This document shows, piece after piece, positions 6,184-50,243 of a stretch of DNA of 64,000 nt. Where the stretch lies: positions 18,778,611 through 18,842,610 of the forward strand of contig NC_092576.1 in NCBI RefSeq assembly GCF_037975245.1, read 5' to 3'. How positions within the stretch are numbered: position 1 is the stretch's first letter; each line of letters begins with the position of its first letter. This stretch comes from Apostichopus japonicus. Taxonomy: Eukaryota; Echinodermata; Holothuroidea; Aspidochirotida; Stichopodidae. The position numbers and the translations under genes are program-made. The notes below the pieces were generated by a model. That model was not told the DNA's origin. It did no database searches and was given only the letters and a program-made list of their open reading frames with translations.

Positions 6184-6339
6184 TCAATATAAGGAGGAGG
6201 TGGCAACGACAATTTCAATTATCACGTAAATAGTAATCCACACAATACCGATACCAAGGGATATCTTCGACCACAATTTAGCGCTTGCAGAGGCTTGCTC
6301 GGCACCTTGTATGTCACCACTACTGAAAAGGCTTCTCAC
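6184..6339 (-). CDS. Dispanin exon 4 (C-terminal half of CD225 domain)
   Basis: The acceptor is TTGTCAAG before 6339; the exon enters in phase 0, codes 51 residues and ends at TGA (6186-6184). It begins [20 protein letters not shown], the conserved GD...A...S..AK loop of CD225, followed by a hydrophobic helix ([19 protein letters not shown]) that would be the second membrane segment. The tail after the helix is only a few residues (TSSLY). Confidence 0.88.
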   Translation of the reverse strand: MRSLFSSGDIQGAEQASASAKLWSKISLGIGIVWITIYVIIEIVVATSSLY

Positions 6340-9300
6340 CTTGACAAGAAATAAACATGGAAAGATATAAATAGACATTTTATCACTTGAAAAAGAAGAC
6401 TGTTCAAGCTTTTCTGTCACTGATATGTGATATACCTGCCTATGCCTATACCCACACGTACCGTAATGTAACTTCTTAATGCCATTAATATCACACACGG
6501 CCGTAGCCACAATTAATATGCCAACATGTACATTCTCCCCTCCCCAAAATGTTCTTACAAATGCCTTACATATATTACACACCCAAAGTCGTATAAACAT
6601 ATGATATTAAAATGACGCAGATGATAACACCATTTTGAAAAATGAAAAATCATGTATCAATATAATAATTAAACTTAAAGTCCCTGACTCTCCAAAAAAA
6701 TGGGACAATTAAGTTTTCTCTAGTACGAAGGTAGGCTATGCTCCTGCGTGGAACAATCTTCACCGCCCACTACCCCTATCCATACCCCTCGCCTTACCCA
6801 CTCTTCCCTTATAAATGCTACATCATTGACTATGTGCACTACTTTCACAATGCAAAAAAAATACTATCAGACTGGATTTTGTGGTCCAATTTTCATGTCC
6901 ATTTTTTCCAAAATTGAAATGATGATTTTATTCGCCTGCTGGTTAATATAAACGGGGATTATATGGGATTATAGTACTTTTGAACTGGTAATAAACAGTT
7001 ATGCACAACTAACAAGAGACTGCTATAAAGTTCTCCAATAGGCCTGCTGGGTCAAATTTGAATTAGCTTCTAAAGGTTTACTCAAGTTTTGATTTTTTTT
7101 TGGGGGGGGGAGGGGAGGGAGTCGGGGGATTGGTTGGGAATGGTGGGAGATGAGAGGGTCTGACCTTTCAATACATTCTCATGTTAAAGATGATAACTAC
7201 AGTTGTGTCAGTGAAACCTCCAGATGGTGGCAGTAAAATGTTTCAGCATTGGTGACCACTTGTTCTATATAACATATTTATGTGCAACACTGGAGATATT
7301 TCATGTAGGAAACCAAACAAAGTGTTATAAATCTGATCATTCTGTACTAGCCAGGAATATGCTAGAATGAAAATGATTCTCATAAAATACTTACTTTGGC
7401 TGCAAATACAATAGCCACGATACCAGTAGGGCAGAAACAGAAAACGGTGACCAGAATTGCAAATACCAAGTAGTCATTAGGTTGTACCTGGGTTGTACGA
7501 ACAATTGTGACAGGAGCAGGCTGTGTGGCGACAGCGACAGTGTTGACCTATATACGGAAAACATAGAACGATTAGCAACTTCGCATAGCAAACTATGCAT
7601 GTAACAAAACACATCGGGGTACTACCGGCCATTAGTATATCATAACAGTATTATGTCTGTAACAGTGTTATGATGTCATAAATAACCAATCTTGAGTATT
7701 ATTGGTATGATCTCACGCACACACAATTCCCCACATTCCAGCTCGCTTTAAACTACACCAGAGCCTCCTCTGCTCTATGTTCAATCCTGCACTCGCCCGT
7801 GTTCTGCTGGTATGGAGTAAGAAAATGCCAATCAAACAGAGAAATATGTATAACCTTAGTGAGCCCAGGACTATAATAACGCAAACTATAGAACTTTACA
7901 TAGGTTGCAATCCCTTTGTTTTTGTTAATAAAGGAGAGCCAAACGTTCCATGATTGTGGAACACTGTATTGAGATGTCAAGTATGTGTAAGCATGTCTAC
8001 ATAAATATCAGCATTTAATAGTATAACAGAAGTATGGCGACTTACGTACCGGTAATTATTAGCGAGTGATATTTGAAACTAACATTCCGAAGACAGAGAA
8101 GGAGAAGAAAAGACATCAACCTAAATGTATATACATATATTCAAGAGTATCGTAACAGTAGCGTGCCTGTAAGTAACAACAAATGCGCCAATATGTTCAA
8201 CGTATCTCACATATATGTTCAAATGTATTGCCCTTATAGTATTAAAAGTACTTCATCAATATAAGTAGACTCTCACGGCTATATGTTCAAAGGTATGGCG
8301 CCTATAGGTTCCTAATTATTTATTTCTCTTTTCTGTCTTCGACATGTCAATTGATGTCACGCCAAAGTGTAACTCCTAATGGGTATATAATACGCTAAAG
8401 TTTGTATTCTACTATAACATTGACATCTCATTTCAGGCTTCGATTGTACGAATCGTTTGGCTCTCCGTTGTTTCCTTTGATAATTACGAGTGCTTGAAAA
8501 ATTGGTACAGAACTTTAAAAGACTCTAATAAAACAAGTCCTGAGGTCGTCAGCGTATTTATAAATCTGTGGGAATAATAAGTTTTGTATAATGAAATAAA
8601 TGGGTCGATATATTGAGATGTGGATTGGAAATATGCTGTGATAATTTGTAACAATATTGCTAATAACAAACGTTAGAACATCTGCCTCTGAATATATCTT
8701 TGAAAGATACAATGAAAAAAGAAAAAAAAAATCATTGCTTGTAGCGCTTCCTACATTTTCTCCATAGTTAACACCAGCCCTAGACGTACCACTGTAACTT
8801 GTTGCTGCTGCTGTTGGGGCGGATAACCTTGTTGAGGCGGATAACCTTGTTGAGGCGGGTAACCTTGTTGAGGCGGGTAACCTTGTTGAGGCGGGTAACC
8901 TTGTTGAGGCGGGTAACCTTGTTGAGGCGGGTAACCTTGTTGAGGCGGGTAACCTTGTTGACTTCCGATATTCCCGACTTGTTATCATATGGAGGAGGCT
9001 GTTGATCTGGAATATATTAATTTGAGTGGTAACATTGTTTCGTGCATTTGTTAACCTATTACTCCTATAACTGGGAGTATACAGCGACTACAGTTTGACC
9101 TTTTCTTACAATGTATCAAGGCATTAAAAAAGTATATTACATCTAGTATCGCTTACGTCGTGTCTCCCTTTAACCAAAATGCTAAGGAAACTGTTTCCGA
9201 TACTATTTATTCTACCCTGGCACATGCGATATATGCAGTGCCCATGTTATATTGTAAGAAAGCAAAGAAAGAAGAATGAAGTTTCTTAAATACACATCAG

Positions 9301-12559: not shown

Positions 12560-12889
12560 AATGAATAATTTCTTTCCACTTCGTAAAACCTGTCACTTGG
12601 TGAGAACGCTTACGTTGTGAATATGTTAGAGAAATGCTATATACAGCCGTGGTACGTTATCGTTATTTCAAAGTACGATTGATTAGAAACTATATAGTGG
12701 TAATGTATTTGTCTAGTCTTGTGATATTATCCACTTTTCAAACTGAATATTCAGTTTTATGAACCGAAATTTTAGCTGTCTTAAGTATCAATAAGGTTGT
12801 ATGTTTGGCTCAGTAGTTTTGTTCAGACTTTGCCGGTTCACTGAGCAGGGTAAAAAGGGAAGTGATACATTCCATACTTTCATCCCACT

Positions 12890-13340
12890 GCCAAGTATTT
12901 CTGTAGGCTTATTCCACTGTAGGCTTTTGTCACCTGTATGGAACAATACAAGTTCTGTTTTTGGTGACAGACCTTGAGTAAACATTAGAAGCTAATTCAA
13001 ATTTGACTCAGCAAGCCTATTGGAGAACTTTTTAGCAGTCTCTTGCTAATTGTGCATAACTGTTTATTACCAGTTCAATAGTACTATAATCCCATATCAT
13101 CCCGGTATATATTAATCCGCCGGCGAATAGTATAGTGTAATCATTTCAATTTTGGCAAAAAGGTCCTGAAAATTGGACCCCATAACCCAGTCTGATATTG
13201 TTTTGCATTGTGAAAGTAGTACACATAGTCAATGATGTAGCATTTATAAGGGAAGAGTAAGTAAGGCGAGGCGTATGGGTAGGGGAAGTGGGCGGGGAAG
13301 GTTGGTCCATGAAGGAGCATTTTAACCCCATTTGTTTATA
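12890..13340 (-). repeat. Dispersed repeat, copy 2 (longest)
   Basis: Reverse-complement match to 6740-7085 and 16525-16888, including the 3' end ccactgccaagtattt that copy 1 lacks. Part of it lies inside the right arm of the inverted duplication. Confidence 0.85.
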
Positions 13341-14620: not shown

Positions 14621-16524
14621 TATATTAATGTTAATATCTGTCTGTGTCAATGTTTATGTAGAACAGACGATACTGAAACCATCGAACAGGAACGTCAATG
14701 AAACAAAAAAGTTAAAAGGAAAAATTCAGTAAACATTCAACATTTCTCTTGTAAGGATAAGTTGTTTCCAAAAACTTCAAATAACATTTACGTTATGGAT
14801 GACACGATGACTGGAGTAAACGATCGTAGATTGATTAACTTTCGAGAACCCAGCTAGATAATAGAAAATTCTTGAAACTGTTAACGCTTACAGGATTACA
14901 ATTGTTTGTAGTTAATTTGATCAAAGACCAATTTCTAAGATGACTAAACTAGATTTACTAAGAAATGATATTCCAGAGAGTGAATACTAATTACAGTGAA
15001 TTTCTAAATAAATTTCTCTCCACAGGTAGAAAGTTACCATTAGGGTTAAATATATCGTTAACAAATATGATGTCCTATTGCATACAATGTCGATAATTAC
15101 ATGGTTAGAACCTAAGTGTGGGTGTGTGTGTTTTTGCATTATAATTGTCAAAAGATTAGGATTCGAGTTTGCTTTACTAGTATTTTATCTGTTTTAGTTT
15201 TTATGTTTCACAATGTGATGTACAGTTGCTTTATTTTTTGTTTTATTTTTTTTTTATTACAGCGTTTTCTGAGAAGTAAATGAGGAAGTTGATTAAAGAA
15301 GGAAGGGCAAAATGAAAAGAAAAAGTACGTTTTTCATATTTTTTTGACCATGATTACATAGGCTATTCATTTGAATAGTTTTCAACTTGTATACTAACGC
15401 TGTATATCAACCTTGTACGCTAACGTTATATGCCAACATTGTATGCTAATCGTGTATGCATACTAATTAACTCAGTTGATGTCTGTCAGTTAAGTACTGT
15501 CGCGAATGTAAGTTTCAGTTTCGCTTTCTTCATTAAGACCACCGAACGCTCTCACCGACCTACTAATATCAAGTTAAAAGGTACATATTTAAACAAGCAC
15601 ATACATAATCAATATTGTCATTTTTCATCTCAGCAATATATAATAATTACTACTTGAGTTTGTGACAATTATTCATTCGTCTAACCTGCCATTATAGAAA
15701 CATTTATTGAGTCGAGCTAAGTTTCTGCATACAATTACCGCAGCCTACACGTCTATTACAAACAGGATGCAGATCTGTAACATTAGATAATGCTTATATT
15801 TCTTTCATCAAATATTCTTTGCTGGTAGCCTATATATCTATTACAGTTTCAAAACACACATAGACCCACATATACCCACCAAGACAGACACACATTGAAA
15901 GAGGCTCATACGGTAGTTTATATACTACCGTGATCCCTTTATTGCAACATTACGTGTAAAACGCTTGGAAATCCCCCGACGGATTCCCTATCTCCATCGG
16001 TGTTTGTTTCGTTTCTTTTGTAATGAATAGTTAAATAGATTCAATACAAATAACATCAACAATGCATACAAACAAATCGACGGACCGTCTTGCAGCTTGC
16101 AGCCATGCAGGTGTCGCACAACAATTAATTGCTCTCAATTGACTCACACACTAAACTCGTCACTTTCCAAGGCCGCTAGAGCCAATAACGTACACAACAA
16201 ATACATCCCGCACAGTGAGTTCCGGGTTAAATTAAGCTGTATAAGTCATACACCTACCTGCATGCTCACCTGTGTCATATTTATTGAGAATTTTTTAGTG
16301 TGTATTTTAGGGAGAAAGGAACTGATATATGAAGTTCGACAGTTATAATAATTTAATATTCAAAAATGATGAGTTGGACAATATTGTCTGCAGTTTAACT
16401 ATTTTGATGAGAGATGTTGATCGATTATGAGACCTACTTCCAGGGGCGTCAATCCGTAGTCACAGGTAGGGGGTACAGTCATTATACATACATACAAACG
16501 AACACACACAAACACACACACACA
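14621..16524. other. Non-coding stretch without a recognised gene
   Basis: AT-rich sequence with a short imperfect tandem motif (tgtat/gctaacg words) at about 15385-15465 and a (CA)n-like tract near 16500-16526. No family is recognised in the small open frames. Confidence 0.5.
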
Positions 16525-16885
16525 CTCACTATTCCCTTATAAATGCTACATCATTGAATATGTGCACTACTTTCACAATGCCAAAAAATCAAACTGGGTT
16601 ATGGGGTCCAATTTTCAGGTTCTTTTTTTTTTCCAAAATTGAAATGATGACAATATACTAATGGCCGGCAGATTAATATATACGGGTATGATATGATATT
16701 ATAGTACTATTAAACTGGTAAAAAAGAGTTATGCACAATTAACAAGAGACTGCTATAACGTTCTCCAATAGGCTGAGTCAAATTTGAATTAGCTTATAAA
16801 TGTTTACTCGAGGTTTGAACTAGTATTGTTCAATACAGGTGACATTCGCCTACAGTGGAATACGCCTACATAAATACTTGGCAGT

Positions 16886-16888
<3 letters not shown>
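16525..16888 (+). repeat. Dispersed repeat, copy 3, ending at a (TA)n tract
   Basis: It matches 12890-13340 along its length (cccttataaatgctacatca at the start, cttggcagtgga at the end) and passes directly into (TA)n at 16889. The abrupt passage suggests the (TA)n tract is the element's tail. Confidence 0.85.

Positions 16889-16982
<94 letters not shown>
16889..16982. repeat. (TA)n microsatellite
   Basis: About 94 bases of pure TA between dispersed repeat copy 3 and the tRNA-like/hammerhead element. Confidence 0.97.
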
Positions 16983-16984
<2 letters not shown>

Positions 16985-17120
16985 CCAAATTGTGGTCTAG
17001 TGGTACGGGTTTAGGTTCGTGACACGAAGATCTGGGGTTACCCTCGCCTGATGAGTCCAAAAAGGACGAAACCGGTCGTGAAGTGGAATTTTTCTGGTGT
17101 GTTATTCTTTTTTGATTTAC

Positions 17121-17123
<3 letters not shown>
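16983..17123 (+). mobile_element. SINE-like element: tRNA-like head plus hammerhead ribozyme
   Basis: The head (about 16990-17045) looks like a tRNA gene: tggtctagtggta fits a pol III A box, and ttcg...cgaa could form an anticodon stem (17016-17028). ggggttaccc stands where a T arm and B box would be, but the B box is poor. A complete hammerhead core follows directly (17048-17077). The element ends in tgatttactaaa and passes into (TA)n. A tRNA-like promoter followed by a hammerhead is the layout described for schistosome Sm-alpha SINEs; the similarity here is structural. Only this one copy is seen in the window. Confidence 0.7.
17041..17090 (+). ncRNA. Hammerhead ribozyme, type I-like, minimal stem III
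   Basis: The core reads CTGATGA (17048-17054), stem II GTCC-AAAAA-GGAC (17055-17067, perfect four pairs), GAAA (17068-17071), then ACCGGT with a GTC cleavage triplet at 17075-17077. All conserved core bases are present. Stem I pairs CTCGC-side bases 17044-17047 with 17078-17081 (C-G, G.U, C-G, U-A), and further pairs follow with bulges (17041-17043 with 17083-17086). Stem III is the self-complementary ACCGGT with no loop, so one molecule could hardly close it; dimeric action is known for minimal type I hammerheads in Penelope-like and related retroelements. Cleavage is predicted after C17077. Confidence 0.85.
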
Positions 17124-17205
<82 letters not shown>

Positions 17206-17257
17206 TATATATATATATATTTATATATATATATAATATATATATACATATATATAT
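17124..17257. repeat. (TA)n microsatellite shared by two tail-to-tail elements
   Basis: Interrupted TA tract with the hammerhead element ending on its left and the minus-strand tRNA-derived SINE ending on its right. Confidence 0.95.
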
Positions 17258-17402
17258 CGTAATGAGTTGGAAAATCAAGAACAGGGAAAAAACTTCCAGC
17301 CTCAACCGGGATTCGAACCCGGGACTGCCGCTTTGTACGCGGACACCCTAACCAACTAGGTCATGGACGCTGATTGTATGTTCAGAGGTTCTAAACCGGA
17401 AA
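17258..17402 (-). mobile_element. tRNA-derived SINE, copy A
   Basis: On the minus strand: an A-box-like ctagttggttagggtg, an anticodon-like stem-loop (ccgc gtacaaa gcgg), and a perfect B box GGTTCGAATCC inside cccgggttcgaatcccgg. The tRNA-like part is followed by ttgattttccaactcatt and a (TA)n tail. The acceptor stem is not convincing, so this is a SINE rather than a working tRNA gene. The second copy is at 47575-47705. Confidence 0.85.
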
Positions 17403-18627
17403 GGAACAATACAATACTATATCGATTCTGATTAGCTGATCTTGGATGGCTCGGAAATAGCAGTTTTCATCACCTAAAACAAGCTATCTGACTCTCAAGT
17501 TACATCTATTCATATTTGAAATAAGACGGTCGTGATTATTTTCTGTATAATATTTATAGATTAATAAGACGCAATTTAAAAACAAGGGATTAATTGTGCT
17601 GTGATCCCAAAGCTAATAAGTAAATTTCCCAACATTTCGGCCCACACAGCCGGTTCACAGATCTCGGTTAACCTGTATCAATAACGTGAGTGGATGAGAG
17701 CCATTCAGATGCCTTTCTAAATATAGAGGCAGATGGGACGTCACTCTACAGATATTCTCCTCATCAGTGTTTCCGCTAAGCCGCTATGACGCGATTTTGA
17801 CGCAATGGATTGCCGATATGTTGCACTGGCATTCAGAGATAGAAACAAATAGGGTGTCTTTTGTCCTGATATTTATATAGTGTGAATGAAAACTAAAACG
17901 TTTCAAAAGGCATGGTGTTCAGAACTTCAACTTGAAGTGACGAAATTATTACTGCAAATTGTTTCCAATTTATCGTCAGAAATGTTAAATTAGCGATCGT
18001 TAACTGAACCTTAGCTATGTTTTTTATTTTTTTTTATAGAGTCACGCATGAGACTTATTCCATACTTTGCTTTTGTACTGGGGAGAGGGCGGTCGTAATA
18101 AGTTTTCCTGACTGTTATATTACTTATAGTATTCTCATAGGGGGAATATAGCACAACTTTAAAAATGGGATAAGTTGAAAGATTTGTTTTCTTCATATAC
18201 TGGTCTAGTTCCGATGATATGGAAAACAAGCAAAAAACATTGAATCAAATAACTCAATGACTAAACCGAAATTGCATTGAAACCAGGCATATATGTACTT
18301 GACTTGGAAATGACATTTGCAAAGCCACTGACATCGAGGTGGGGCGAGGTTATGCCCCCCCCCCCAATCATTTAAAAGCAATGATTTTCAAAAAGACCTC
18401 ATCTTACAGGTAAATTTGGTGAATTTTGACAACTTTTGTCCTGACCGCAGGTTGTCCTGCCTCCCCCAACCCACAGATAAGAAACCCGTATCGGTGCTCT
18501 GATTAACAACTTTAAGGAGGAATGTTAAAATCCACTCATATAATGACGTCTGAAGCGATGCAAAAAATATGACAAAAAGCTGTTTTTATTATTCCATGTA
18601 CTAGGAATCAATCTTTGCAACAAATGA
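17403..18627. other. Non-coding stretch without a recognised gene
   Basis: No exon, tRNA or repeat unit recognised. A C-run lies near 18355-18365. Confidence 0.5.
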
Positions 18628-18823: not shown

Positions 18824-25468
<6,645 letters not shown>

Positions 25469-25630
25469 TGAAAAATGCATCAATTCAATGGAATGTGTAA
25501 TTAATTACTTAGTTAATTAAATTATTTGCTATATTGATTATACAAAGGGAATTACTTTCAATAGTACCCATACTGGAGTCCTTACAGTGGTCCAGTGTGA
25601 TGATATAACATTGAATTGATGCATTTTTCA
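25469..25630. mobile_element. Inverted partial satellite unit bounded by 22-bp inverted repeats
   Basis: The ends are exact reverse complements over 22 bases (25469-25490 and 25609-25630; core GAAAAATGCATCAATTCAAT). Between them lies part of a satellite unit in the orientation opposite to the array (taattaattacttagttaat, then agtacccatactggagtcc). The piece marks the right edge of the array. Confidence 0.8.
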
Positions 25631-28959: not shown

Positions 28960-31688
28960 GGGAAGGTAATCAATTGCCTTGTACATCACAATGTTCACAG
29001 TGCATTCCTGTATATGAAACCAGACGACTGGCAAACCGGCTGTGGTGGGTGTGGCTGGGAAAGCAATTTTAAAGTCACCTAAAAGCTAACCTAGATCAGC
29101 TTTCATGGTAACCACATCAAAGTAAATACAATGTGTCAGGTATGGCCCCATGAGCAACAAATGGCCATCGCCAGTAATTATTGGTGGTGGGGTAGCTTTG
29201 CCAGCCTCACGGATGACCTAGGTCAGCTCATGAGGTAACCACTTGAAACCTATTGGAAAATGATGGTCAGGACTTCAGTTACAAGGGATGGGCATTTCCA
29301 GTCATTTTTATTGGTGGGTACCCCTGCCAGTAGACCCCCAAAATGCCCATCCCCTCATTGACCTAGGTGGCTCATGAAGTAACCAGTTGAAAACTACTGG
29401 AAAATGATTAGCAGGACTCTATATGTGAGGGATGGGCAATTCCAGTAATTTGTATTAGTGGGGTACCCCTGCAAGTAGACCCCCAAAATGCCAATCCCCC
29501 TCATTGGCCTAGGTGTGCTCATGATGTAACCAGTTGAAACCTACTGGAAAATGATAGGTATCACTTCATATGTAAAGTTTGGGCATTTCCAGAAATTTCT
29601 ATTAGAGGGGTACAAGATGCCAGTAGACCCCCAAAAAGCCCATCCCCTCATTGACCTAGGTCTGCTCATGAAGTATCCAGTTAAAAACTACCGGAAAATA
29701 ATTGGCAGGACTCTATATGTAAGGGATGGTCAATTCCAGTCATTTATATTAGTGGGGTACCCCTGCCAGTAGACCCCCAAAAAGCCCATCCCCTCATTGA
29801 CCTAGGTCAGCTCATAAGGTAACCAGTTGATACCTACTGGAAAATGATAGGTATCACTCATATGTAAGGGATGGGCATTTCCAGAAATTTCTATTAGTGG
29901 GGTACCCCTGAAAGTAGACCCCCAAAATGCCAATCCCCCTCATTGGCCTAGGTGTGCTCATGATGTAACCAGTTGAAACCTACTGGAAAATGATAGCTAT
30001 CACTTCATATGTAAAGTTTGGGCATTTCCAGAAATTTCTATTAGAGGGGTACAAGATGCCAGTAGACCCCCAAAAAGCCCATCCCCTCATTGACCTAGGT
30101 CTGCTCATGAAGTATCCAGTTAAAAACTACCGGAAAATAATTGGCAGGACTCTATATGTAAGGGATGGGCAATTCCAGTCATTTATATTAGTGGGGTACC
30201 CCTGCCAGTAGACCCCCAAAAAGCCCATCCCCTCATTGACCTAGGTCAGCTCATAAGGTAACCAGTTGATACCTACTGGAAAATGATAGGTATCACTCAT
30301 ATGTAAGGGATGGGCATTTCCAGAAATTTCTATTAGTGGGGTACCCCTGAAAGTAGACCCCCAAAATGCCCATCCCCTCATTGACCTAGGTGAGCTCATA
30401 ATGTAACCAGTTGAAACCTACTGGAAAATGATAGGTATCACTTCATATGTAAAGTTTGGGCATTTCCAGAAATTTCTATTAGTGGGATACACGTGCCAGT
30501 AGACCCCCCAAAAGCCAATGCCCTCATTGACCTAGGTCAGCTCATGAAGTATCCAGTTAAAAACTACCGAAAAATAATTGGCAGGACTCTATATGTAAGG
30601 GATGGGCAATTCCAGTAATTTCATATTACTGGGGTACCCCTGCCAGTAGACCCCCAAAGAGCCCATCCCCTCATTGACCTAGGTCGGCTCATAAGGTAAC
30701 CAGTTGATACCTACTGAAAAATGATAGGTATCACTCATATGTAAGGTTTGGGCATTTCCAGAAATTTCTATTAGAGGGGTACAAGTGCCAGTAGACCCCC
30801 AAAAAGCCCATCCCCTCATTGACCTAGGTCTGCTCATGAAGTATCCAGTTAAAAACTACCGGAAAATAATTGGCAGGACTCTATATGTAAGGGATGGGCA
30901 ATTCCAGTCATTTATATTAGTGGGGTACCCCTGCCAGTAGACCCCCAAAATGCCCATCCCCTCATTGACCTAGGTCGGCTCATAAGGTAACCAGTTGATA
31001 CCTACTGGAAAATGATATGTATCACTCATATGTAAGGGATGGGCATTTCCAGAAATTTCTATTTGTGGGGTACCCCTGAAAGTAGACCCCCAAAATGCCC
31101 ATCCCCTCATTGACCTAGGTGAGCTCATAATGTAACCAGTTGAAACCTACTGGAAAATGATAGGTATCACTTCATATGTAAAGTTAAGGCATTTCCAGAA
31201 ATTTCTATTAGTGGGATACACGTGCCAGTAGACCCCCAAAAAGCCCATCCCCTCATTGACCTAGGTCAGCTCATGAAGTATCCAGTTAAAAACTACCGAA
31301 AAATAATTAGCAGGACTCTATATGTAAGGGATGGGCAATTCCAGTAATTTATATTAGTGGGGTACCCCTGCCAGTAGACCCCCAAAAAGCCCATCCCCTC
31401 ATTGACCTAGGTCGGCTCATAAGGTAACCAGTTGATACCTACTGAAAAATGATAGGTATCACTCATATGTAAGGTTTGGGCATTTCCAGAAATTTCTATT
31501 AGAGGGGTACAAGTGCCAGTAGACCCCCAAAAAGCCCATCCCCTCATTGACCTAGGTCTGCTCATGAAGTATCCAGTTAAAAACTACCGGAAAATAATTG
31601 GCAGGACTCTATATGTAAGGGATGGGCAATTCCAGTCATTTATATTAGTGGGGTACCCCTGCCAGTAGACCCCCAAAATGCCCATCCC
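28960..31688. repeat. Tandem array, 146-bp unit with 439-bp higher-order period
   Basis: The landmark tcattgacctagg is spaced 146-147 bases (29355, 29501, 29648, 29794). Three-unit blocks repeat at 439 bases, so that the segments at 29551-29772 and 29990-30211 are almost identical. The clean array runs from about 29230 to a sharp end at 31688; 28960-29230 holds degenerate units. Each unit contains the palindrome GGGGTACCCC or a variant and most contain TGACCTAGGTCA or a close form. The duplicated 73-codon open frames are by-products. Confidence 0.95.
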
Positions 31689-34121
31689 CAATCATCTCCA
31701 CCCAAACTACTTTTCACCCAAAAAGTTATATCTATATACATGCAAGGTATACTTAAAGATAGGATATAACAAAGTTTTGTGCAGCTTCAGCACTTTCGGA
31801 AATATATTTTTAAATTCATAACAGAGTCAATACAATATTTGAATGTTTGTTAGCCAATATATTAATATTTATGGTATTAAATAATAATAAAAGTCCAAAA
31901 CCAACATAAACTTTGCTTACAAAGTAATGACCTTCAGTACAATACAACATTTGTGTAATCAGGGCTCTTATATCGCTCACTGAAATATTCAACTTGTCTC
32001 AATTTTGCCAACTAATAATTCTCCAATTGTGCAGCATCAGCCAATACTGCAATCCTTATCATCCACAAAAGTTTGTGACTTTGTGAGCTTCGGAATTATC
32101 ATCCTGGCATTTTTTAATATTAAAGGTATAATGTCATGAAATTCAAGGCAAAATGCAGTCAAGTGTTAGTTTAGTTTCTAATTATTGGTGCATGCATCAG
32201 CATCCTAACCACATGTGTTTGTTGTACCATTTATGTTGCATGATCATGTGCAGTGGAACAGATCATGATTGCACAGGAGAATACTTGTCAGCCTACAGCT
32301 GGTTTACAAGCACCACTTGTTAAACGCTCATACTGGCATTACTGTTATTGAAAGAAGATGCAATATGAACCACAGAAAATAATGCATTTTTTTTTTCATT
32401 AGATGCAGACATTGAAGAATTTCATTGATATCCAATGCATATTTATATACTCTCTTCACAACATGTGAAAACAATATTCTGTATGTATAATTTGTAAAGG
32501 TGTTGTAGAACTAGGTGTTTAGCATTAGCAGTACATCAGTTAGGAATGCATTATTATGGGCTCTGTTTTGGTGTCAACACAATAACAGACTAAAACCTGC
32601 TAAATGTAGCACTTTATCATCAGGTTTCTAGTGCAATTATGTGGAAATGACAACCAGCTAAAAACTTGGGTTCTAAATTAAACTGCATAACTTTACCTTT
32701 ACTTACTTACCCTCAACCATGTACATGCCCCTATTCAGTATTGTGGGTAATGTCAAATTTAATACACATCAACCAGTCACTAGTCAACAACCTCACACAT
32801 CAACTTCCAGTTGCAGTATTATTGTACTTTCCATAACCTCATTATTCTTTTTGAAATGAGCGCCAAATGCAATGTGGGTTAATCTACTCACCAAGTACGA
32901 GAACAGTCTAACTGACATCAGATGCAAATGCAAATACTACACTGTACATATGAGATTAACTACTGGCAGTTGTAACACATATTTTAAGAGAAGTCAATTA
33001 TAAACTACTTTGAAAATCTATCTGCTTTAGTAGAAGATTCCAATTCGGGCTTTTTGTTCAGTGTATAGTAAAGGTTTTGAAATTATAAAAACAGAAAAAG
33101 AGCATCAATTCAGTTTTAATATGCAATACATTTTTAAATTGAAGTAAAACATTATTTAAATTCAATACAACTCATCAAATTTGTAATATAAACCTGAATG
33201 CAAATTGGTATAAAAGGAAGTTCCAATGCCCTAATAATGAAGTTTTGTAGATAAAAGGCAATAAGGATCATTAACTTAATATGATCAAATATGAAATATG
33301 ACATTGTGTTTACAATTTAGCTGTATCTGGCTTATATCTCTCTGGTGCAAACTGTTCATAAATTATTATTGAGATGATGCTGTCCCCCATAAATGGAAAA
33401 GAGCAGGATATTGACATTTTATTAATTTGGAACAAGAATTTATAATGATGTGACATGGCTTAATACTCCTTAGCCAGGTACAGTAACTCTCTTTTCTCTG
33501 CAATCACATGGTATTACAGGGCTTCAGGTTCAATTAACATACACTTAATTTGGAATACTAGTTTGTAGTATAGGTAAGTTCTTTTTCATTTGCAAAAAGG
33601 GACATCTAGTCAGGGGTTGCATGATCTATGCAGGGATTGCTTGATTTGTAATTTGAAGTTGTAACAACATTCCATTTGTATGCTATTGAAAATGTACAAC
33701 CTAAGCAAATCAAATATCATTTTGTGTTACTATTCTGTTTTAATAGGAGACCTGTTCAATTATGGCTGAACCAAATTGCTTAATAGTTTTCCAAAACTAC
33801 AAAGAACATGAATAACGCTTATTAATTTGAAAAAACAAATAATGTACATGAATACAGTGGTTCAGTTTCACCCTAATTACTTTGTGTTAGTGGTTGGTAA
33901 TTTTGAATTGGTGTCGATAATATGACATACTTCTCCAGTTTTCCAAAAAAAAATAGGAAGATCATCTCATTAATTTCTTCTCTCACTAATTAATTGTTTT
34001 TCTGAGACTACAACTTTAAATCTTTGTAATATTTTACAGGATCAACACACAAGATTAAATTAATCTGCCAACATACTTAACATTCTTTTCTCTGCCAGCT
34101 TCTGGCATTTGCCAGATTCAT
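31689..34121. other. Non-coding stretch without a recognised gene
   Basis: AT-rich, no repeats with a clear period and no convincing exon. It may be 3' flank of the minus-strand gene ending at 34122. Confidence 0.45.
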
Positions 34122-47238: not shown

Positions 47239-47705
<467 letters not shown>

Positions 47706-47720
47706 GAAGATCGTAATTCT

Positions 47721-49291: not shown

Positions 49292-49384
49292 CCCTCTTCC
49301 AATATTCTCAGTTGCTGCCAGCAAAACAAACAACCACGCTGACTGTTATGTTTTAATTACGTTGATTTTAAATAGCATAGGTCA

Positions 49385-50243
49385 CGGTGACGTGTAAAAT
49401 AAACCAAGCTACAGCAGGTCACAAGGTCACGGTGACGTGTAAAATAAAACCAAGCTACAGAGGGTCAGAAGGTCACGGTGACGTGTAAAATAAACCAAGC
49501 TACAGATGGTCAGAAGGTCACGGTGACGTGTAAAATAAACCAAGCTACAGAAGGTCACAAGGTGACGGTGACGTGTAAAATAAACCAAGCTACAACAGGT
49601 CACAAGGTCACGGTGACGTGTAAAATAAACCAAGCTACAGAAGGTCACAAGGTCACGGTGACGTGTAAAATAAACCAAGCTATAGAGGGTCAGAAGGTCA
49701 CGGTGACGTGTAAAATAAACCAAGCTACAGATGGTCACAAGGTCGCGGTGACGTGTAAAATAAACCAAGCTACAACAGGTCACAAGGTCACGGTGACGTG
49801 TAAAATAAACCAAGCTACAACAGGTCACAAGGTCACGGTGACGTGTAAAATAAACCAAGCTACAGAAGGTCACAAGGTCACGGTGACGTGTAAAATAAAC
49901 CAAGCTACAGAAGGTCACAAGGTCACGGTGACGTGTAAAATTAACCAAGCTACAGAAGGTCACAGGGTCACGGTGATGTGTAAAATAAACCAACCTACAG
50001 AAGGTCACAAGGTCACGGTGACGTGTAAAATAAACCAAGCTACCGAAGGTCACAAGGTCACGGTGACGTGTAAAATTAACCAAGCTACAGAAGGTTCACA
50101 GGGTCACGGTGATGTGTAAAATAAACCAAGCTACAGAAGGTCACAAGGTCACGGTGACGTGTAAAATAAACCAAGCTACAGAAGGTCACAAGGTCACGGT
50201 GACGTGTAAAATAAACCAAGCTACAGAAGGTCACAAGGTCATC
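49385..50243. repeat. 45-bp minisatellite, about 19 copies, rich in AGGTCA half-sites
   Basis: The unit contains gtgacgtgtaaaataaacca, agctacagaagg and tcacaaggtcacg, spaced exactly 45 bases at most junctions. Since 45 is a multiple of three, frames of 213 and 218 residues stay open on opposite strands; neither has splice or family support. Most units carry AGGTCACAAGGTCA (a direct repeat of AGGTCA with two-base spacing), the palindrome GTCACGGTGAC and TGACGTG. Confidence 0.95.

Follow-up and report, generated by a model that had tools for sequence, protein, structure and literature searches.

A decayed hammerhead element of Apostichopus japonicus, a sea cucumber, is one member of a dispersed family of 349-bp units with pol III-type boxes and Penelope-like insertion structure

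The 64-kb stretch of Apostichopus japonicus DNA analysed here (hereafter "the window") contains a real type I hammerhead ribozyme at positions 17042-17083, which matches the Rfam model RF00163 (Hammerhead_1) with 36.0 bits (E = 2.4e-5 for the 64-kb window; gathering score 34 bits) and possesses the conserved core. It is part of a copy of a 349-bp unit that is dispersed in the genome, and judged by its sequence this copy is best seen as a relic. We consider it, with a probability of about 0.6, to be a decayed non-autonomous retroelement of the retrozyme type, whose unit transcripts would be multimeric, cut by the hammerhead, and reverse transcribed by an enzyme of the Penelope-like element (PLE) type into (TA)n. 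The features of the window copy and its immediate flanks are as follows (unit coordinates carry the prefix U):

16888..16982, no strand assigned: (AT)n on the 5' side of the window copy (read from sequence)
16983..17122, + strand: window copy of the 349-bp unit, decayed; 89% to U210-349, plus a short remnant of pre-head sequence
16983..16989, + strand: AGCCAAA, remnant of the 5' part (global alignment to the 349-bp unit)
16993..17003, + strand: box A of the tRNA-like head, TGGTCTAGTGG (read from sequence; the box A of the family)
17038..17039, + strand: site of an 8-nt deletion (alignment to other copies)
17042..17083, + strand: type I hammerhead ribozyme (RF00163, 36.0 bits)
17048-17054, + strand: hammerhead core CTGATGA (read from sequence)
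17055-17058/17064-17067, + strand: stem II, GTCC/GGAC (read from sequence)
17068-17071, + strand: hammerhead GAAA (read from sequence)
17071..17076, + strand: minimal palindromic stem III, ACCGGT (read from sequence; Rfam alignment)
17078..17122, + strand: tail 3' of the predicted cleavage site, with a T5 run at 17089-17093; ends TTTACTA
17123..17257, no strand assigned: (AT)n on the 3' side of the window copy (read from sequence)

The core elements, claimed to be complete in a sequence-only reading of this DNA, could be read directly, and the deuterostome host guessed there proved to be right, the source being a sea cucumber. Allowing up to 3 mismatches, a search for the 25-nt core pattern gave a single hit in the 64 kb and none in 100 shuffles, and cleavage is expected after position 17077. 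The copy is nevertheless a fragment: the 8-nt deletion takes out box B together with the 5' strand of outer stem I, inner stem I has a single mismatch (17043/17082), most of the 5' part is missing, about 29 nt are gone between the AGCCAAA remnant and the head (the 5' strand of the basal helix included), and the fold of the 141-nt copy is no better than that of shuffles (z = 0.40). Its head, judged alone, is suggestive only. The earlier interpretation is partly supported: it recognised a real hammerhead in what turned out to be a family member and was right in outline, but it concerned a relic.

Part of the (AT)n on the 3' side of the copy may be the tail of a tRNA-derived SINE on the opposite strand, located at 17250-17406 (-) (Rfam tRNA, 44.3 bits at 17298-17370). 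A second such SINE is found at 47560-47708 (-), with an Rfam tRNA score of 24.2 bits at 47599-47672, under the threshold; the bodies of both run into (AT)n, and the two match each other over about 290 bp. A tail common to the hammerhead element and the neighbouring SINE was considered and rejected, with alignment scores within those of shuffles (p 0.07-0.47 in six comparisons). The window also contains three copies of a dispersed repeat (6738-7092, 12885-13320 (-), and 16524-16887), the third of which ends at 16887, at the start of the (AT)n that holds the element, a tandem-repeat array at 19556-25618 with copies at steps of about 209 bp, a minisatellite-like array at 49379-50241 with steps of about 90 bp and two frames open, a duplicated stretch at 29214-31689 with repeated 80-aa frames, and an exon-like frame at 6187-6606 (-) with a CD225 (interferon-induced transmembrane protein) domain (40.1 bits).

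Searches of the genome (671,581,487 bp in 35 contigs) revealed the family. The 141-nt window copy used as a query gave 46 matches (40 scored of 897 first-look candidates), and with 316 nt taken from a more complete copy 146 were obtained (40 scored of 1152), many of which correspond to the (AT)n end of this query only. Seventy fetched loci, merged by position, yielded 52 distinct loci, which were picked by similarity and are the best-scoring ones; some of them resemble duplicated regions (L241/L242, L253/L254). The ribozyme region is present in all 52, with the core intact in 42 and changed in 10, and Rfam detected a hammerhead in each of the 20 family loci submitted. A genome search with RF00163 itself gave 59 matches among those listed, 50 of them above the cut-off (74 scored of 66,307 candidates), and the same model had no match in 14 control genomes. 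Seven of the 59 (L427-L433, chosen by us among the higher-scoring ones) were read, and all seven belong to the 349-bp-unit family (78-96% identity). The two sequence-based checks proposed with the sequence-only reading, namely a covariance score above background and the presence of a second genomic copy, thus came out in its favour. For most intact copies the best model is Rfam Hammerhead_HH9 (RF02275), to which stems and loops align with 30-41 bits, below the gathering score of 52. Hammerhead_HH9 has a vertebrate intronic setting.

The unit (U1-349, taken from L243) is composed of a 209-bp 5' part (U1-209, with TATAAA near U55, as read from sequence), a head that begins at U210 and has box A at U212 and box B at about U255-265, the hammerhead with its core from U275, and a 45-nt tail that ends at U349; cleavage is expected after U304. 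The 61 unit places that we compared are spread over 20 contigs. Direct tandems are found at L243, where 135 nt of the preceding unit abut the 349-bp unit, and at L268 (204 + 341 nt), and contig C14 has three head-to-tail unit matches about 341 bp apart; in the tandems the units adjoin without a coding part between them. In size and composition (small, non-coding, tandem, 349 bp, GC 41%) the unit corresponds to a retrozyme, and as a circle it has a stable fold (z = -3.05, 100 shuffles).

The head carries the internal box A and box B expected of a tRNA-derived SINE, with box B absent from the window copy. The strict pair is present in 24 of 30 loci and in 41 of 52 in the larger set; when the unit was shuffled 2000 times, it never arose, and a looser pattern arose twice. 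Among the copies found by RF00163, the pattern matched two of the four loci tested. The Rfam tRNA model (RF00005) gave no match at E <= 10 to the head of the window copy or of the intact copy L238, in which, by eye, the T arm lacks the pairing seen in tRNA and the anticodon loop is short. Since this model misses even an intact head, it is the boxes, with the distance between them, that justify the label "tRNA-like". The tRNA-like head reported directly before the hammerhead is borne out by the boxes of the family, and not by a tRNA fold. The head alone as a genome query gave 41 matches, all at 97% or more (40 scored of 644 candidates), a result uninformative on ribozyme-free heads.

Box B overlaps with the ribozyme. 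Its GATTCC can pair with GGAATT located 3' of the cleavage site to form an outer stem I of six pairs, with a UAC/U internal loop between it and the inner stem I, which likewise has six pairs. When imposed, this structure has -9.3 kcal/mol, versus -17.4 for the free fold of the same 58 nt, in which the core is partly paired. In the free fold of the 180-nt consensus, the upstream AACACACCAG pairs with CTGGTGTGTT, located after the ribozyme.

A comparison of eight diverged copies with the unit (L428, which lacks the head, was excluded) gave differences at 3/85 sites in box A, 4/88 in box B, 48/248 between the boxes, 32/262 upstream, 24/297 in the tail, and 10/360 in the hammerhead, the last figure being biased, because six of the eight copies were picked by ribozyme score, a bias of which the box figures are free. 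The boxes are less changed than the stretch between them (7/173 vs 48/248 sites, p = 1.6e-6) and than the upstream sequence (p = 0.003), with both p values to be taken as a guide only, because sites in related copies are not independent. Covariation is weak: the hammerhead stems exhibit one-sided changes and no covariation, and the one two-sided change is a head-hairpin pair, C-G to U-A, in 3 of 14 distinct rows. In the alignment 94.3% of cells pair, a value equalled by 9 of 500 shuffles and falling to 40-47% when the alignment is slid, and the covariation score is attained by 114 of 500 shuffles. The self-complementary stem III, from which activity as a dimer had been proposed, is kept as a palindrome in L427 (ACGCGT) as well as in the window copy, and is broken in L275 and L431.

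The insertion structure of the 52 loci resembles that of PLEs, in that 3' ends lie inside the unit, 5' ends vary, pieces are arranged in tandem or inverted, and the sites are AT-rich. The 3' ends fall in two places, 40 at U340-349 and 12 at U29-40. An inverted piece occurs in 22 of the 52 loci, on the 5' side in our listing, and a direct tandem longer than one unit in six. In the 60 bp next to the insert, (TA)5 is found at the 3' end of 47 loci and at the 5' end of 36, with 32 loci having it on both sides; the baseline is 2.7% of random 60-mers from the window. TATATA continues past 28 of the 40 ends at U340-349; because the unit border itself reads CTATATAT, the exact junction has no unique position there. 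In 51 of the 52 loci, whether direct tandems or single copies, the part of the unit that precedes the head is represented as well. The earlier description of a SINE-like element applies as far as dispersal and the pol III-type head are concerned, whereas the 349-bp, partly tandem unit with PLE- or retrozyme-like insertion is not a simple SINE.

Taken together, these features suggest the following scheme. Pol III would initiate transcription at the head, unless transcripts begin at another place. The hammerhead would reduce multimeric RNA to lengths of 349 nt, perhaps acting as a dimer through the palindromic stem III, and a host RNA ligase may circularise the product. With a nicked (TA)n target as primer, a Penelope-type reverse transcriptase might then start at an internal position of the RNA, the UAUAU of the unit border; the cDNA would span a shorter or longer stretch than one unit and would end up in a (TA)n microsatellite. 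The gene with RVT_1 and GIY-YIG found in this genome (L307, see below) is in keeping with such a scheme. Several observations speak against this scheme. The hammerhead stems do not covary, the head has no Rfam tRNA match, and the enzyme itself could have synthesised the (TA)n on the 3' side, in which case this repeat would not be the target. The T5 run would terminate a pol III RNA early and most copies include pre-head sequence, which implies that templates start elsewhere or come from read-through. In the single PLE that has been examined in vitro, hammerhead mutants left insertion unaltered (PMC11167929). Finally, none of the GIY-YIG matches listed connects a unit to a PLE: the nearest of the 37 (150 scored of 626) has a distance of 191 kb to the closest of 61 unit places, which come from two similarity searches and are a subset of the matches. 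No PLE-type ORF was noticed in ten 9.9-kb regions inspected for frames above 200 aa.

Among the alternatives, we regard as unlikely, yet as the best of the three, a SINE similar to Sm-alpha of schistosomes, transcribed by pol III from the head and moved by a LINE, with the hammerhead trimming the transcript or riding as a passenger. It would account for the presence and conservation of both boxes, it has the schistosome precedent (PMC2770079), and it agrees with three copies that begin near or past a pol III start, L428 at U267, L429 at U215, and L430 at U205, so that L428 is devoid of the head and L429 of part of box A. The pre-head sequence in 51 of 52 loci, the tandems, the inverted 5' pieces, and the T5 run before the tail argue against it.

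Less probable still is that the unit is a pseudo-LTR of an autonomous PLE, left over once the coding part was lost. Tandem pseudo-LTRs of PLEs carry hammerheads (PMC7761336, PMC11167929), and the A. japonicus genome has a PLE-type gene in tandem: in L307 (1-3801), a frame of 910 aa scores for both RVT_1 (30.1 bits, cut-off 29.6) and GIY-YIG (24.2 bits, cut-off 22.6), and the end of a second copy is present. In this locus, the sole PLE locus read, we found no Rfam match at E <= 1, no hammerhead, and no similarity to the 349-bp unit, the spacer included; the tandem units abut directly, without the reverse transcriptase and GIY-YIG that a PLE has inside the element, and no GIY-YIG was near a unit among the matches listed. 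A chance match, or a dead repeat with a functionless hammerhead, would fit the damage of the window copy and the 10 changed cores and is very improbable in view of the shuffled controls of the core pattern, the few hammerhead differences relative to upstream sequence (in copies mostly picked by ribozyme score), and the conservation of boxes for which no such selection was made.

The retrozyme-type retroelement that we favour has precedents. For metazoan non-LTR retrozymes (PMC7229834), linear and circular RNAs were shown and PLEs were proposed as the movers, and our family shares with them the type I hammerhead, a unit within 150-450 bp, GC below 50%, tandems, the non-coding character, and a stable circular fold. 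It differs from them in the pol III-type boxes fused to the hammerhead and in occurring mostly as single or partial units (52 loci) instead of long arrays. With PLEs (PMC11167929) it has in common partial tandems, AT-rich sites, the hammerhead, and a 3' end inside the unit, and it is distinguished by the absence of a coding part, by microhomology to (TA)n at the 3' junction, and by no linked PLE having been found among the matches listed.

The closest counterparts on the side of the head are Sm-alpha and Sj-alpha of schistosomes, described in PMC2770079 and PMC8490949 as short SINE-like elements with tRNA-related sequence and a type I hammerhead (for Sm-alpha, PMC8490949); of the 2,368 tRNA-Gln-TTG genes predicted in S. 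mansoni, 2,342 were assigned to SINEs resembling Sm-alpha (PMC2770079). The sequence-only reading had cited this precedent correctly, and because of it the combination of tRNA and hammerhead is not new in itself: the A. japonicus family is a variant of known hammerhead retroelements. By description it departs from Sm-alpha in the echinoderm host, box B within stem I, inverted 5' pieces, and PLE-like (TA)n insertion, and its head is not recognised as tRNA by Rfam. SINEs make up 0.02% of the published A. japonicus assembly (PMC10344927). The literature searched, with most subscription papers outside its coverage, yielded no hammerhead retroelement of an echinoderm or sea cucumber and no retrozyme with a pol III promoter. 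A hammerhead motif filter of IMG/VR returned at least 35 rows from viral contigs (one site twice) and is uninformative on our family; one of these viral contigs (L010, 2408-3833) has four hammerhead-like motifs within about 1.5 kb.

More tentatively, and with considerable doubt, the family may represent a class of animal retrozymes in which one stretch serves as both pol III box B and a strand of stem I, so that promoter and ribozyme would evolve as one module, and which Penelope-type machinery would carry to TA microsatellites, with priming at UAUAU in multimeric or circular RNA. The repeats of metazoan retrozymes have no conserved motif that would point to the mobilising retrotransposon, according to a review (PMC7761336). 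The A. japonicus family does have such marks, namely the two places of the 3' junction, the microsatellite site, the inverted 5' pieces, and the conserved promoter, and these allow direct tests, in a farmed animal, of where transcription starts and of which enzyme is the helper. An element lodged in TA repeats, in which a gene switch of the tRNA type is coupled to a self-cutting RNA, offers a route to understanding how self-cutting elements spread.
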